Shown: piece after piece, positions 1-26,735 of the stretch
Layout: the number at the start of each line of letters is the position of its first letter
Position numbering within the stretch: the first letter of the stretch is position 1
Source of the DNA: an uncultured bacterium
Lineage (GTDB): Bacteria; Bacillota_I; Bacilli_A; RF39; UBA660
Assembly (NCBI GenBank): GCA_949288335.1
Contig: CASEJU010000055.1
Location: 1 to 32,845 of the forward strand
Length of the DNA stretch: 32,845 nucleotides
Direction of reading: 5' to 3'
The notes under the pieces: generated by a model
Database searches by the model: none
What the model was told of the DNA's origin: nothing
The model's input: the letters and a program-made list of their open reading frames with translations, nothing else
Position numbers and translations under genes: made by a program

Positions 1-80
1 AAATGTAATTTATATAGTGGCTATTAATATGCCAAGTTATAAAATATGTGATGACAGGACTATGATATTTTGGGCATTAA

Positions 81-124
81 CTCCAAAACCACTGTTGGGA
101 GTTCGATTCTCTCATCCCCTGCCA
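81..124 (+). tRNA. 3' half of tRNA-Trp(CCA), attachment-site remnant
   Basis: Reads as the 3' part of a tRNA-Trp: anticodon loop CTCCAAA (anticodon CCA at 83-85), 3' anticodon stem ACCAC (88-92), variable TGTT, T-arm GGGAG-TTCGATT-CTCTC (97-113), acceptor strand ATCCCCT (114-120), discriminator G, CCA (122-124). Upstream bases do not supply the partner GTGGT stem, a D-arm or the 5' acceptor AGGGGAT, so the 5' half is absent. A lone 3' half is what a tRNA-targeting integrase leaves at the distal end of an inserted element. With this orientation the element, and the intact tRNA, should lie to the left of the window. Confidence 0.85.
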
Positions 125-181
125 TTTAGATTTGAACACATGAATCTAGAATTGTATTTTTTAAGATTATGTGATAATAAT

Positions 182-208
182 AGCACCTAGAGATTGGGCG
201 CTTTTTTA
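182..208 (+). terminator. Rho-independent terminator after the tRNA-Trp fragment
   Basis: Imperfect hairpin AGCACC...GGGCGCT followed by TTTTTT. It lies about 60 bp past the tRNA-Trp 3' end, where the original tRNA transcript would terminate. This supports the right side of the fragment being chromosomal. Confidence 0.55.
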
Positions 209-241
209 TTATAATCGTTTTATTAAAAGGAGTCGAAATTT

Positions 242-898
242 ATGAATGAGTATCCACAAATTAACAATGGTAAAAAACCGAATGAAATATTAAATGCCAA
301 ATTAATATTTTGGTTACCACCAGATTCTCCATATGGAAATCTTCAATTAAAATATATGGATATCATTCAAAGAATAGATATTATCAATCACAAAATTATT
401 GACACATTTAATATCTGGAATCGTATACACAGCACTCAAGGTTTTACTTCATTTTTATTAATGCAACATCGATCTTTAAATGAAGAAATCGTTTTTCATA
501 TAAGAAGAATAACAGATGAACTCATTGGATTAGTATATTTATTAAAATTTTATGACAACAATAATTGTTATCCCAATATTATCAAAATTAATGATATTGG
601 TACATTGAAGAAGAATTTTGATCAACTTCCATTATTTAATAAATATTCAGATTTTTTAGATACTATGAATAACATTTCTAATGCTTTTAAACATAGTTTT
701 ATAAATAGTGATGTGAGTTTAATCATAGGACAATTAGAGCCATGTATAACCGCACTTCATTTACCCAGCAATAATTTATCGAAAGATTTAAAATTTTATA
801 ATATTTCTCTTAAAAATCAGCTGGTTGCACCATTCAACGAACTTTACTCAGATATCACCAAGTGGTTAAATACATTTAGTAAAAAACATCGAAATTAA
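242..898 (+). CDS. HEPN-like hypothetical protein
   Basis: 218 aa, soluble, no signal peptide or membrane segment, preceded by AAGGAG at good spacing. Mostly helical. A segment near residue 87 (RRITDELIG) and a later NAFKHSF near residue 147 resemble the helical HEPN-type hypothetical proteins found sporadically in bacterial genomic islands (pattern DELI...isNa.KHS). The classical Rx4-6H RNase motif is not clear. It stands alone next to the tRNA-Trp attachment scar, a usual place for accessory genes. A TATAAT lies just upstream at 210-215 but no good -35 is visible. Function unknown; the HEPN-like label is inference from motif resemblance. Confidence 0.6.
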   Translation: MNEYPQINNGKKPNEILNAKLIFWLPPDSPYGNLQLKYMDIIQRIDIINHKIIDTFNIWNRIHSTQGFTSFLLMQHRSLNEEIVFHIRRITDELIGLVYLLKFYDNNNCYPNIIKINDIGTLKKNFDQLPLFNKYSDFLDTMNNISNAFKHSFINSDVSLIIGQLEPCITALHLPSNNLSKDLKFYNISLKNQLVAPFNELYSDITKWLNTFSKKHRN

Positions 899-1250
899 TT
901 ATTCGTTCTTTACATTAAGTGTTTTGCTATAATAATTTAATAGAACTAAAAGATTTGTTTTAGATAAACTTAGTACGATAAAGTATTATTTTTTTATAAA
1001 AAACGTTGATTCGGCATTTCATAGTTTATACTTTGATTATATGTCAAGAGACATAAGATTTAAGAATATAATTATAGGATACATGTATTGAAATGAATAT
1101 TGCTCATATATTTTCAGAAAAAATAGGCGTAGTACAAGAATTTGTCTTGATTTAATACTAAAGAAGAATTTAAAGATAATCATAAATTAAAAGAACATAT
1201 ATAAAAAGCTATATTTCAAACAATAAAAAGAAACACTCTCTTAACATAGA
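899..1250. other. Intergenic region without an intact gene
   Basis: About 350 bp of AT-rich sequence. Short open stretches in several frames (for example from the ATG near 1041) are interrupted by stops within about 20 codons. It may be a decayed gene, but no family could be recognised. Confidence 0.5.
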
Positions 1251-1280
1251 AAAAACATACCATTAAAAAAGTATGTTTTT
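1251..1280 (-). terminator. Terminator of the FkbM-type gene
   Basis: Inverted repeat AAAAACATAC / GTATGTTTTT around a 10-nt loop. On the minus strand it ends in a T-run and directly abuts the stop codon of the methyltransferase gene. Confidence 0.8.
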
Positions 1281-2205
1281 ATATTGCAAATAAAACTATC
1301 TCCGTTGGAAAAATTATACTACCATAACATCTTAAATAAAACTTATAAGATGAATCCATATCATTAATCATTAATGGTATCTTATATAAATCCTCATGAT
1401 TATGATAAACGGATATTAATAACTTTGGATGCTCATTTTTAATATGTCTTTCACAACCTTTTAAAGCCTTTTGTTCAGAACCTTCTATATCCATTTTAAT
1501 TAAAGTTACTTTATCTTTTATGTCATTATCAATAGTAGTTGCTATAACTTCTTTATCACCAGTTTCCTTTATGGTATTAGCGGATGCCCCAGTTTCGTTT
1601 TCGTTTATGTATAACACACCCTCATGATCTGATGCTGCTTTATTAACAAACTCTATGTTCTTATACTTTCTTAAGTTACCTTTTAACACTTCAAAAGTTT
1701 CTTTAGTTATTTCATAACAATATATTTTTTTATAGCTATCTTCTCCAAAGGTATCGATATAATTTAATATAGTATCTGCCGTATACGCTCCTAAATCAAC
1801 GATTACTTCATCACTGTCTGGTTTTAATATATCTAAATCTAAATACTGCTCATAGTTTTTTTCTAAAGCATTTGCAATGGTTACAAAATCAAAGTTATAC
1901 CAGTTATTTAAAATGGCATATAAAAGCTTTTTAGAGCGATAATCAGATAATTTATTATATATAAACACATAATCATCTATATGCTCCTTTAGTGAATTAG
2001 CACGGTTGTATAACTCTTCGTATTCTTCATTACTTCTTTTAAGTTTTCCCCAGTAACCAAAGTTTGCGTAATAATCTTCTAGTGACTTTTGTGTCTCTAG
2101 TGGAATTTTAAAGAAAGCATCTTTTATGTTGTTAAACACTTCTTCCTTAGTCTTGTTTTTTATCTCAAAAGCAAGCTCATTAAATTTCTTATCTATAGTA
2201 TTCAT
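1279..2205 (-). CDS. FkbM family methyltransferase
   Basis: 308 aa SAM-dependent methyltransferase of the FkbM type (PF05050). The N-terminal ~110 residues are helical and not recognised. The Rossmann domain starts near residue 135 with the glycine-poor motif I VDLGAY, followed by the acidic residue of motif II (CYE). The characteristic LIKMDIEGSE motif lies near residue 235. Strong AAGGAGG seven bases before ATG. Family members usually O-methylate sugars or small molecules, or act on glycans; substrate unknown here. Monocistronic, with its own terminator; upstream TATAAT at 2233-2238 is a probable -10. No glycan cluster is adjacent. Confidence 0.85.
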   Translation of the reverse strand: MNTIDKKFNELAFEIKNKTKEEVFNNIKDAFFKIPLETQKSLEDYYANFGYWGKLKRSNEEYEELYNRANSLKEHIDDYVFIYNKLSDYRSKKLLYAILNNWYNFDFVTIANALEKNYEQYLDLDILKPDSDEVIVDLGAYTADTILNYIDTFGEDSYKKIYCYEITKETFEVLKGNLRKYKNIEFVNKAASDHEGVLYINENETGASANTIKETGDKEVIATTIDNDIKDKVTLIKMDIEGSEQKALKGCERHIKNEHPKLLISVYHNHEDLYKIPLMINDMDSSYKFYLRCYGSIIFPTEIVLFAI

Positions 2206-18057: not shown

Positions 18058-19914
18058 TTAATCATGTTTATTAAAAGTGTTAATTAAGTGCATGTATTCT
18101 TTTTTATACATGCCATTACTATCAATAATATGAGCATTTAAATTATTACCATTATTATCAATGCAATGATTCCATGTTAAATTATCACTATTACCCCAAG
18201 TAACAAATCCTTTTAAACAATCTTTATATTGTTTTATAAAAGTATTCATTATTATTTGTCTTTCTCGTTCATCATTACATATAAAATCAAATTCAGTACA
18301 ATATAAAGAAATATTAAGTTTTTTGTATTTTTTTGAAGTTTTAATAATATCATTTATAGATAATTTTTTATTATAAGATATTTTTTCTAAATAATGTGAT
18401 TGTAAACCTAAACCATCAATTAATTTAATATTATCTCTTTTTTCTATTTTTTTAATATATCGTATTATTTTACAGATCTTATTACATTTCTTAATGTTAT
18501 ATTCATTATATTCATTATAAATTAAGTCTATTTTTGGAAAATATTTTTTCAATATTTTTAAGACATCAATAAAATATTCATCTCCATTTGTTGGATTTTT
18601 GCCAATAGCATTTTTCCAAAATGATTTTCTATATAAATAATCATTTTCATTTTCTGCTATCTCATTTAAAGCATCCATTAAAATGATAGGATACTTATTT
18701 TCTTTAAAAAATGATGATAATTTAAATGCATAATATTCAATGAATTTTAGTGTAGCATTTCTTTTTAATTCTTCTTTTTCTTCTTTTGATAGATTTAAAT
18801 TATCAATATTATCTATTTCATTTTTTAAATTTTCAGGTATTGAATTATGCCATAAGAAATCATGATGTTTTATTAATTTATTCTTTTGTTTTGTATAATC
18901 ATATATTATTTTAAGATGTGAAAAATCAAATTTTAAATCTTTATTAATGTTGTAGTTATCATCAAATATCTTTTGATTAATTGGAACAATAAATTTCATT
19001 TTTCCTTCTGATTCACATTGTACTAAATTAATATCTTTAATATAAATACTATATAGATTTTTAATAGTATCATAATTTAAACTACCATATCCTAGAAAAA
19101 GATCATACATAGCATTATCTATTTTATTTACATTACTCGTTAATTTCTTTAAGTAAGTTAATGTATTATTTTTTTTCTTTTTGATCATTTCTTTAATTTT
19201 TTTGTTATATTCAGTTTTTTTCTCTTGATTCGTTATATCTAACTTGCTAATTTTTTCAAAAAGAATAAACAATTCAATTAAAAGAGATTTGTATGTTGTA
19301 CCAAAATAATTACTCATCTTCTTTTTCTTTTTGCTATAAACATAATTTTTAAATAATCTGTAAACTATTCTTAATGTTGAATATGTCAAGGTATATGAAT
19401 ATAAGTCTTTTAATACATATTCTCGTGTAGAAAAATAATCAGATTTTATTATAAATTGATTTTTTAAACTTAATAATTTAAGTAATTTTAAATCATCATA
19501 TTTAATAACATTATATCTTGAAGTAACTTCTGAACAATTAAATAATTTACATGCAAGATTTTTAGCAGAACATCCTTTATTTGTTTGATACAAACACTTT
19601 CTACAGCATCCATTACATTTACCATTTTTTAATTTTCTTTGTACATAGCATTTATTATCTTTAAAACCGCATATATTGATACTTTTAGTATTATCATCAA
19701 TTAATTTGCATGAATTATCATATATATATGTAATTCTTTTTTTACGATTTTTAATATTTAATGCATTTATTATATAGTCCATCATATTATCATTAATACT
19801 ATTGTTAACCACAAAAAGAGTGTTGCAATATAAAATACTCTTATATATATTTATTTTTTTAAGAAATTTAATATAATCATTATTATTATTTATTAAAATA
19901 GTTTTACTTTTCAT
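18058..19914 (-). CDS. GH10 xylanase-fold protein with cysteine-rich N-terminal domain
   Basis: 618 aa, no signal peptide. The C-terminal half (about 265-612) has the GH10 landmarks in order: HHDFLWHNSIP near 350 (family HxLxWHxxxP), MDALNE with acid/base Glu418, IYNEYN near 465, DGLGLQSH near 500, YCTEFDF with nucleophile Glu541, and VTWGNSD near 571. GH10 enzymes cleave beta-1,4-xylan and are normally secreted. The N-terminal part has eight cysteines in 89-127 (KCNGCCRKC...GC...ACKLFNC), resembling CxxCC metal-binding YkgJ-type domains. Residues 140-265 are helical, unknown. Last gene of the operon starting at 22083. Confidence 0.8.
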   Translation of the reverse strand: MKSKTILINNNNDYIKFLKKINIYKSILYCNTLFVVNNSINDNMMDYIINALNIKNRKKRITYIYDNSCKLIDDNTKSINICGFKDNKCYVQRKLKNGKCNGCCRKCLYQTNKGCSAKNLACKLFNCSEVTSRYNVIKYDDLKLLKLLSLKNQFIIKSDYFSTREYVLKDLYSYTLTYSTLRIVYRLFKNYVYSKKKKKMSNYFGTTYKSLLIELFILFEKISKLDITNQEKKTEYNKKIKEMIKKKKNNTLTYLKKLTSNVNKIDNAMYDLFLGYGSLNYDTIKNLYSIYIKDINLVQCESEGKMKFIVPINQKIFDDNYNINKDLKFDFSHLKIIYDYTKQKNKLIKHHDFLWHNSIPENLKNEIDNIDNLNLSKEEKEELKRNATLKFIEYYAFKLSSFFKENKYPIILMDALNEIAENENDYLYRKSFWKNAIGKNPTNGDEYFIDVLKILKKYFPKIDLIYNEYNEYNIKKCNKICKIIRYIKKIEKRDNIKLIDGLGLQSHYLEKISYNKKLSINDIIKTSKKYKKLNISLYCTEFDFICNDERERQIIMNTFIKQYKDCLKGFVTWGNSDNLTWNHCIDNNGNNLNAHIIDSNGMYKKEYMHLINTFNKHD

Positions 19915-25802: not shown

Positions 25803-26735
25803 CTATCTTAGCTTAGAAATTTCCTCCCAATTTTCCGGAAATCCCATTCTATCTAATATTTTTGATTGAGGAATAACATTTACTCTTCCATCAAGTAAAC
25901 TTAAATCGTAGCTAACCTCATTAACAAAATCAATAAAATCACTTTCGGTAAGCATTTGTTTTAACATTATAACAACAGAATATATGTCATTTTTACCATA
26001 GACATATTCATCATTCATCATTGGAATGTCAAGTTCCATATGATATTTTGTATCAGGAATTTCTTTTTGCGTACGATGATCATACACAATGTCTTCATGC
26101 GCACACAAATTACGATAATTCGAAAGTAAAGTAATATAAATACCTAATGTTTCTACGTCCAAATTATAATATTCCGCAATTGCTAATTTATCATCTGGTT
26201 TTAGTATGGAATATAACTCATTAATCATTCCAAAAGATAATAATTTAACTAAAATCCATAATGGAACATATCCGTATTTACTTAAGTAGTGAAGTGTTGC
26301 ACTATGCTGTCTACCATTTAACTTTATCTGTCTTTTAATTTTATTTAAAACGTCATTAACTTGCCTTATTTTTTTTGTATCTTGAGAGAAATTTGAAGGT
26401 TTTAAATAATCTTTTTCCTTAATACCATACTTTTTTGACAACTTATACGATATTATTGATTTTAAATTATTTTCTACAATAAGTAAATTTTTAAACAATA
26501 AATTCCTAAAGCTTCTATCGAATTGAAACACCGCATATAATTCTTCAAAAGTAGTACCTTTAATAAAAAAATCTTCCTTATGATTCTTCATAAATATATG
26601 TCTATAACCATTAATAAAGAAATAATTTTCTCTTAAAAGCAAACTTTCTGTTTTTTCAACATCATTAATTACCAACCCACGGTTTTTTAATATTTCGACT
26701 TGCTCATCTAAGGTTTTAAACTCTTTAGTCTTCAC
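25803..26735 (-). CDS. Abi_2 (AbiD/F-like) HEPN-domain protein
   Basis: 310 aa of the Abi_2 family (PF07751). Typical features: TLDEQVEILKNRGL at the start, YFFINGYRH near 33, FDRSFRNLLF near 73, and the HEPN-type RNLCAHED motif near 210. Known members are abortive-infection proteins thought to act through HEPN RNase or nucleic-acid binding, though some sit in stable chromosomal loci. Start is GTG with AGGTG seven bases upstream, behind an extended -10. It leads a two-gene unit with htrA, an unusual partner for a defence protein. Confidence 0.87.
   Translation of the reverse strand: MKTKEFKTLDEQVEILKNRGLVINDVEKTESLLLRENYFFINGYRHIFMKNHKEDFFIKGTTFEELYAVFQFDRSFRNLLFKNLLIVENNLKSIISYKLSKKYGIKEKDYLKPSNFSQDTKKIRQVNDVLNKIKRQIKLNGRQHSATLHYLSKYGYVPLWILVKLLSFGMINELYSILKPDDKLAIAEYYNLDVETLGIYITLLSNYRNLCAHEDIVYDHRTQKEIPDTKYHMELDIPMMNDEYVYGKNDIYSVVIMLKQMLTESDFIDFVNEVSYDLSLLDGRVNVIPQSKILDRMGFPENWEEISKLR

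Follow-up and report, generated by a model that had tools for sequence, protein, structure and literature searches.

A displaced tRNA-Trp 3′ half as the probable attachment scar of a compact tyrosine-integrase element in an uncultured member of the Bacilli

How does the 3′ half of a tRNA gene come to stand at the edge of a contig without its 5′ half? The DNA analysed here, a stretch of 32,845 nucleotides called the window below, is the whole of contig C55 from the MAG of an uncultured bacterium (1,077,653 bases, 82 contigs, 94.8% complete). Positions 81–124 read CTCCAAAACCACTGTTGGGAGTTCGATTCTCTCATCCCCTGCCA, which is the 3′ half of tRNA-Trp(CCA), 44 bp from the anticodon loop to the CCA end. 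The first-pass annotation had described it as a half gene without its 5′ half, and the sequence agrees; neither ARAGORN nor Rfam called a tRNA at this position. Judging from comparison with related genomes, we propose that positions 1–124 of the window are probably the attR of a compact tyrosine-integrase element that inserted into tRNA-Trp by crossing over in the anticodon loop and that carried a replacement tRNA.

The half gene and the genes to its right

The last 24 bases of the scar occur a single time in the window, even at a tolerance of 3 mismatches, against a chance expectation of 0, and the exact 44-mer is present in 32 of the 192 other family genomes searched; the scar is therefore not a chance likeness. 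The tRNA-Trp pattern was found in 66 of 193 family genomes, the present one counted. When 29 loci of the wider pattern (exact and near copies) were given to ARAGORN, 28 proved to hold an intact tRNA-Trp and one was truncated by the contig start. The 5′ half that is usually paired with exact copies of the 44-mer is AGGGGATTAGTTAAATGGTATAATAATGGT. Positions 81–133 of the window match five relatives (G189, G004, G068, G141, and G174) at 98%. The assembly itself yielded no second copy of the tRNA-Trp 3′ half besides that of the window, and an intact tRNA-Trp was sought among its tRNAs and not found. Contig C42 begins with part of a tRNA, which was read by eye as a truncated tRNA-Gly(TCC) and was rejected as a candidate. 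The features at this end of the window are collected in Table 1.

Table 1. Features read at the left end of the window. C8 is a second contig of the same assembly and G197 a genome of the same genus; both are described in the text.
Feature	Coordinates	Strand	Remarks
Putative right end of the integrated element (arm W)	1..80	+	79/80 identical to both G197 cargo ends
Counterpart of arm W (1..80) in relatives: tip of the inverted repeat flanking the cargo			175 nt, 98%, loop included (G197)
CTCCAAA, anticodon loop of tRNA-Trp, inferred crossover segment	81..87	+	Common to C8 and window at the junction
Remainder of the displaced tRNA-Trp 3′ half with CCA (putative attR scar)	88..124	+	
Sequence once downstream of tRNA-Trp, resembling a terminator by eye only	125..241	+	
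Accessory ORF, 218 aa, between the scar and the decayed Fic-like gene; not clearly in the element	242..898	+	
Decayed remnant of a Fic-like gene	1070..1232	+	DNA matches of about 71–77%
FkbM-type methyltransferase	1279..2205	−	Pfam Methyltransf_21, 1.6e-9

We take the first ORF to the right of the scar (242–898) to be an accessory gene, rarely present, at a hotspot of variation. Searches of Pfam, PADLOC, and NCBIfam gave no match to it; homologues were found in two of the 385 other family genomes searched (36%) and on one Arthrobacter plasmid (33%), and no tRNA-Trp site was present in the 3.6 kb read around each of the two family homologues. Its predicted structure is helical and of low confidence (mean pLDDT 62, built on 3 sequences). 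The best structural match, 5yep_C (Z 8.0, rmsd 3.6, 127 residues), does not rise above the background of helical bundles, and the same is true of the HEPN entry 4nqf_A (Z 5.5). We take 5yep_C to be a HEPN toxin complex, although the title of the entry does not say so. With no family match and a structural match within the helical background, the label 'HEPN-like' that the first-pass annotation had attached to this ORF is unproven. Two further suggestions made there found no echo in the window: it gave no sign of a second, tandem element to which the ORF might belong, and no further copy of the 3′ half to the right of the scar, the next best match having 19 mismatches in 44 and lying inside tRNA-Thr.

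The decayed gene that follows, which we take to be Fic-like from a motif and not from a family search, has matching genes that start about 60–130 bp after tRNA-Trp in three relatives (L095, L096, and L097 in G091, G187, and G054). The FkbM gene and the ORFs next to it mark the chromosomal right flank of the tRNA-Trp locus. Two genes farther along the window are recorded in passing. Positions 25803–26735 encode an abortive-infection-like protein (Abi_2, PF07751, 4.5e-41) whose neighbours, by eye, are a serine-protease-like gene and S9/L13-like ribosomal genes, and positions 18058–19914 encode a protein of 618 aa that contains a domain of glycosyl hydrolase family 10 (6.6e-29); the genome that carries it is very small.

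The matching 5′ half on a second contig

The missing 5′ half of tRNA-Trp was found on contig C8 (11327–11356) as a perfect copy followed by CTCCAAA and then by foreign DNA. It is the only complete 5′ half in this genome when up to 3 mismatches are allowed, and it lies near the contig end, where the order is 5′ half, CTCCAAA, and TTACTTGG with other foreign bases; 65 bp on, a second 5′ half starts, of which the first 15 bases are visible before the contig ends. The first-pass annotation had taken the scar for the distal junction of an integrase element to the left, and this is the best reading of the present data as well, the same junction closing such elements in relatives. Its expectation for the left side, an integrase and an intact tRNA-Trp, is borne out in those relatives, where a tyrosine integrase accompanies tRNA-Trp, but the left junction of the present genome is not simply a restored tRNA: a broken 5′ half comes first and the start of another tRNA-Trp copy follows.

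Our reading is that a single element crossed over in the 7-bp loop, with C8 holding its attL and the window its attR. If they stem from one insertion, CTCCAAA alone is common to the two at the junction and neither holds the whole tRNA. The att site predicted by joining the two arms agrees in 166 of 167 bases with the inverted site beside the tyrosine integrase of G197, a same-genus genome that, by its coordinates, is G395 of the genus search. Compared without gaps, the same predicted site agrees in 144 of 167 bases with G193 and in 93 of 167 with G195. Furthermore, the spacer of C8 is identical to that of G197 (65/65) and arm W of the window is nearly so (79/80), against 78–79% identity for the chromosome that flanks C8, as would be expected if the element had moved recently.

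Gene order in another same-genus genome, G391, bears on the same point. A single contig carries, in order, the genes of the C8 left flank, an intact tRNA-Trp, and the FkbM, 161-aa, and DUF4153 genes of the window, FkbM being separated from tRNA-Trp by an old 3′-half scar and other genes over about 13 kb. By this comparison, C8 and the window hold the two chromosomal sides of a single locus, left and right respectively.

Measured from the far side of the loop, C8 and the window both end after exactly 87 bases. In a comparison of contig ends (24 contigs of this genome, of which two reading as N were dropped), just three pairs among the 42 ends of 22 contigs had at least 15 bases in common, and each of these pairs (C2/C15, C10/C11, and C18/C56) shares exactly 87. 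Because both contigs stop 87 bases from the loop and the paired ends share 87 bases, the word length of the assembler was most likely 87 and its graph most likely held a third sequence joining both arms. This third sequence was not found in the bin. No circular form was seen, and the integrase, intact tRNA-Trp, and cargo of the element were not found in the assembly, which we count against our preferred explanation. The genome has two other intact integrases, on C80 and C47; at 28% identity to the tRNA-Trp integrase, they were not taken as the missing one; a broken Phage_integrase gene with several stops on C56 (1826–2342, L116) gave no match to it.

Related elements and other states of the locus

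The complete arrangement can be read in G197 (L144). Its left part consists of the left flank, 5′ half, CTCCAAA, 65-bp spacer, intact tRNA-Trp, and a 344-aa tyrosine integrase (Phage_integrase, 2.6e-29). After the integrase come, in inverted orientation, a decayed tRNA-Trp copy, the spacer, CTCCAAA, and arm W, and the remainder comprises the cargo, arm W, CTCCAAA, the 3′-half scar, and the right flank. G193 has this order on one contig (L146) and G195 has it over two (L148 and L149). In all three, an intact tRNA-Trp lies between the outer junctions. Inverted repeats bound the cargo in G193 (173 nt, 99%) and G195 (261 nt, 90%) as they do in G197, and another pair bounds the part that holds the tRNA and the integrase (130 nt, 97% in G197 and 96% in G193; 57 nt, 89% in G195, whose contig ends there). 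In each of the three genomes the tRNA-side spacer is identical to that of the inverted site (65/65), whereas between genomes it agrees in about 60 of 65 bases (G197 and G193) or 45 of 65 (G195 and either of the others). We counted this identity within and difference between genomes in favour of a spacer unit that is borne by the element. A promoter-like match in the spacer carries little weight, the region having 17 such matches against 11.0 (sd 2.8) in shuffles. CTCCAAA is common to attL, attR, and the inverted att site, and was found at the classified junctions with the exception of one CTCTAAA (G396). G195 has an extra CTCCAAA in each cargo inverted repeat (L148, 7241 and 12634), 158 bp from the outer CTCCAAA and within a hairpin-like stretch, TTTTTTGATGA..TCATCAAAAAA.

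The displaced 3′-half scar closes the element at six of the ten integrase loci, and at the remaining four (G194, G157, G396, and G181) the contig ends before any scar. The integrase starts about 165–195 bp past the 3′ end of an intact tRNA-Trp at eight of the ten; in G262 it starts at the same distance past a tRNA-Trp 3′ half, and the tenth locus, G181, is a fragment at a contig edge. At E ≤ 1e-40 the integrase was detected in 5 of 386 family genomes. Viral contigs held no close relative of it, no junction of 5′ half, loop, and spacer, and no attP junction. A comparison with phage records gave 517 matches, all below 60% identity, the ten listed being at 26–30%. Two viral contigs carry the 44-mer. 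Each has an intact tRNA-Trp whose neighbouring genes resemble phage genes by eye, and neither gave a match to the integrase. An 18-base attL pattern had seven matches in the species genomes, of which six are tRNA-Trp loci; the seventh, in Neomarinimicrobiota, was dismissed as chance.

Elements of relatives are about 5–8 kb long, and six of them are complete to the scar (G197, G193, G195, G299, G250, and G262). Defence-type genes were recognised in five of these six by family matches, their functions being predicted: ThsB TIR with an 8xMP membrane protein in G197, AAA_13 and PDC-S06 models in G193, a CBASS cyclase, E2, and 2TM effector in G195, AAA_21 with RloB and AbiL models in G299, and a type II restriction enzyme model in G250. 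No defence gene was recognised among the subset of G262 ORFs that was scanned. PHROGs searches of 28 of the 31 cargo ORFs in the six elements returned no head, tail, packaging, or lysis family; the matches were to regulators, a cold-shock domain, toxin–antitoxin genes, and families of unknown function. We do not regard the element as a temperate phage because these 28 ORFs include no phage structural family and the integrase has no close viral relative. At the end of the CBASS cargo of G195, by the scar (L148, 7593–8320), lie genes of toxin and HicB-like antitoxin families (PHROGs, 4.5e-16 and 1.3e-25). Two ORFs are common to the cargoes of G197 and G193, and both are on opposite strands relative to the integrase (2/2). 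The shared ORF of 279–286 aa is separated from the right end by 315 bp in G197, and in G193 it is the left end that is near, at a distance of 309 bp; in G396 this ORF has the G193 orientation.

The tRNA-Trp locus was found in several states. A spacer unit upstream of tRNA-Trp occurs together with the integrase in four genomes (G197, G193, G195, and G194), and G195 has two units in tandem with different spacers, of which the tRNA-side unit matches the resident element and the outer unit does not. G396 carries the integrase and the inverted site without a spacer unit. A broken integrase with an inverted site is present in G262, directly behind the 3′-half scar of another element; this other element (L158, 1–6793), with ParA/ParB-like genes on reading of its ORFs, ends in the scar, making a tandem insertion. 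G157 and G181 are truncated by contig ends. At 6095 in L161, G181 has, next to the integrase fragment, a short palindrome made up of an end resembling arm W, CTCCAAA, and a trace of the 5′ half in inverted orientation. This may be an inverted att site that has become worn; the remaining 6 kb held no scar.

Ten of the 18 same-genus genomes were read, and all ten have an intact tRNA-Trp, one (G396) together with the integrase. In six others of the ten, among them G371 with its second 3′ half, at least 3 kb of right flank contained no such integrase ORF, and the last three end too soon. Decayed, older 3′-half scars with 8 mismatches after the loop lie at 15243 in L144 (G197) and at 11717 in L184 (G391), which shows that the same locus has been used repeatedly. 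In G052 an intact tRNA-Trp is followed, after 1,195 bp, by another 3′ half (L100, 8972 and 10167), with one 193-aa ORF and no integrase-sized ORF between the two. On contig C38 of G140 (L119, 10088–11929), a 523-aa ORF lies by a 3′ half at the contig end; its integrase match covers 94 residues at 32% and it was set aside. A second contig of G140 likewise ends in a tRNA-Trp 3′ half (L101).

A proposed mechanism, its rivals, and known systems

In the mechanism that we propose, the integrase would recombine the CTCCAAA of tRNA-Trp with the CTCCAAA between arm W and the spacer. The host tRNA-Trp would thereby be cut in two, its 5′ half being left on C8 (attL) and its 3′ half forming the scar in the window. 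The new tRNA-Trp copy that starts 65 bp inside attL is most likely complete, as it is in relatives, and so the element would supply the tRNA that its insertion destroys; lying past the spacer, this element-borne tRNA would replace the broken host gene and would presumably be needed. In relatives the integrase comes after the tRNA gene, followed by the inverted copy of the att region and then the cargo between inverted repeats, and the same integrase would probably flip the cargo by recombining the two inverted ends. We infer that both reactions, insertion and flipping, would be the work of the integrase, and the contents ascribed to the missing element of the present genome are deduced likewise. 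Were the element-borne tRNA to recombine with the scar, the element would be lost and a spacer unit left behind, as seen in G174 and G196. The anticodon stem provides inverted arms around a 7-bp loop, a size that a review (PMC8371274) relates to the 7-bp overlap usual for tyrosine integrases.

Several orders of events fit the making of two spacer-unit copies and none is proved. One scheme that we put forward tentatively, as a possibility short of probable, is a mobile system in two parts: a fixed drive module (its own tRNA-Trp, integrase, and two inverted att sites) and a cargo module with inverted ends, joined at two anticodon-loop sites. Such a system might insert as a whole circle, flip its cargo, and perhaps exchange defence cargo, and the 101–102-bp units at the tRNA gene would record past insertions.

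The main and serious rival, which we consider rather unlikely to be correct, is that of an ordinary tRNA island. Here attP would be arm W, CTCCAAA, and the 3′ half, with a core of 44 bp, so that insertion would restore tRNA-Trp and leave a 3′ half at the far end; the 101–102-bp spacer unit would be a footprint of earlier insertions. This reading denies that C8 and the window belong to one insertion and interprets the intact tRNA-Trp of the relatives differently. G299 and G250 have exactly such a plain form, with an ordinary restored tRNA and neither spacer unit nor inverted site, and these islands, together with G396, mean that a reconstituting 44-bp attP is also possible, with the spacer unit coming from an earlier event. 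The spacer unit with an intact tRNA and no integrase match in the contig examined (G174 and G196) also suits an ordinary island, as do the two tandem units of G195 and a genome of the genus (G371) where a spacer unit is absent, as is any such integrase ORF in the 3.8 kb that separate an intact tRNA-Trp from a second 3′ half beyond it. The match of the tRNA-side unit to the spacer of the resident inverted site, at 65/65 in all three genomes where it could be tested, argues against a mere footprint. The contig ends of the present genome, moreover, point to a joined arm W, CTCCAAA, and spacer, an arrangement that the island model permits as an inverted site but does not need.

That the fragment is a decayed tRNA pseudogene or tRNA-derived repeat unconnected with integration is very improbable: old degenerate copies of the 3′ half do lie near the locus in G197 and G391, but all 44 bases are intact in the window, the break falls exactly at the anticodon loop, a 5′ half with the same break is present on C8, and the same type of junction closes the element at six of the ten integrase loci of relatives, the contigs of the other four ending before a scar is seen. 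An assembly chimera is scarcely credible, for although the scar sits at the very start of a short-read MAG contig, the first 87 bases of the window (arm W and CTCCAAA) recur twice inside the longer G197 contig with one difference, once followed by the same 3′ half.

Tycheposons are small tRNA-linked elements with a tyrosine recombinase, and we liken the present element to them by description and not by sequence. The closest known process, by analogy with our preferred reading, is tRNA-dependent lysogeny. In PMC10865867 it is described for the actinophages Fionnbharth, LeBron, and Gaia, with Lj965 of Lactobacillus johnsonii also named in the discussion, and prophages similar to Mesorhizobium phage Lo5R7ANS are named in this context in PMC12429752. 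Both processes would involve a tyrosine integrase, an attB in a host tRNA gene, and a host tRNA that is not rebuilt at the junction. PMC10865867 gives cores of 8–10 bp and a phage tRNA of the same isotype, whereas the core proposed for the present element is 7 bp. Unlike those phages, it is about 5–8 kb long and carries mostly cargo of anti-phage-defence type, with no phage structural families in the ORFs searched; its tRNA copy lies right inside the att junction, and it has an inverted second att site and inverted cargo ends.

In relatives the element resembles ordinary tRNA islands as set out in the Islander paper (PMC4383910), with an integrase adjoining an intact tRNA gene and, at the other end, a piece of displaced tRNA; unlike them, the spacer-unit form duplicates the 5′ half, and on the present reading the host gene would be broken at both ends. 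The pTN3-like archaeal integrases are similar in that their attB is said to correspond to a tRNA gene's 5′ half (PMC8371274). Those integrases are archaeal and their inversions are of chromosome scale (large inversions in Thermococcales are the subject of PMC5495485), whereas here a small cargo lies between inverted att ends. No description of the present element was found in the open-access library searched. Islands in tRNA genes and element-borne replacement tRNAs are already known; what is new, as far as we could see, is a small carrier of defence genes in which att sites are inverted, cargo is flipped, and spacer units are stacked.

If the proposed mechanism is true, tRNA-dependent integration would not be confined to temperate phages but would also be at work in small defence islands among uncultured Bacilli. 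The survival of the host would then be explained even where an integrase targets nothing more than the 7-bp anticodon loop of a tRNA gene that is presumably essential, and the inverted att site, flippable cargo, and stacked spacer units would together make the turnover of defence islands a history that can be read at one locus.
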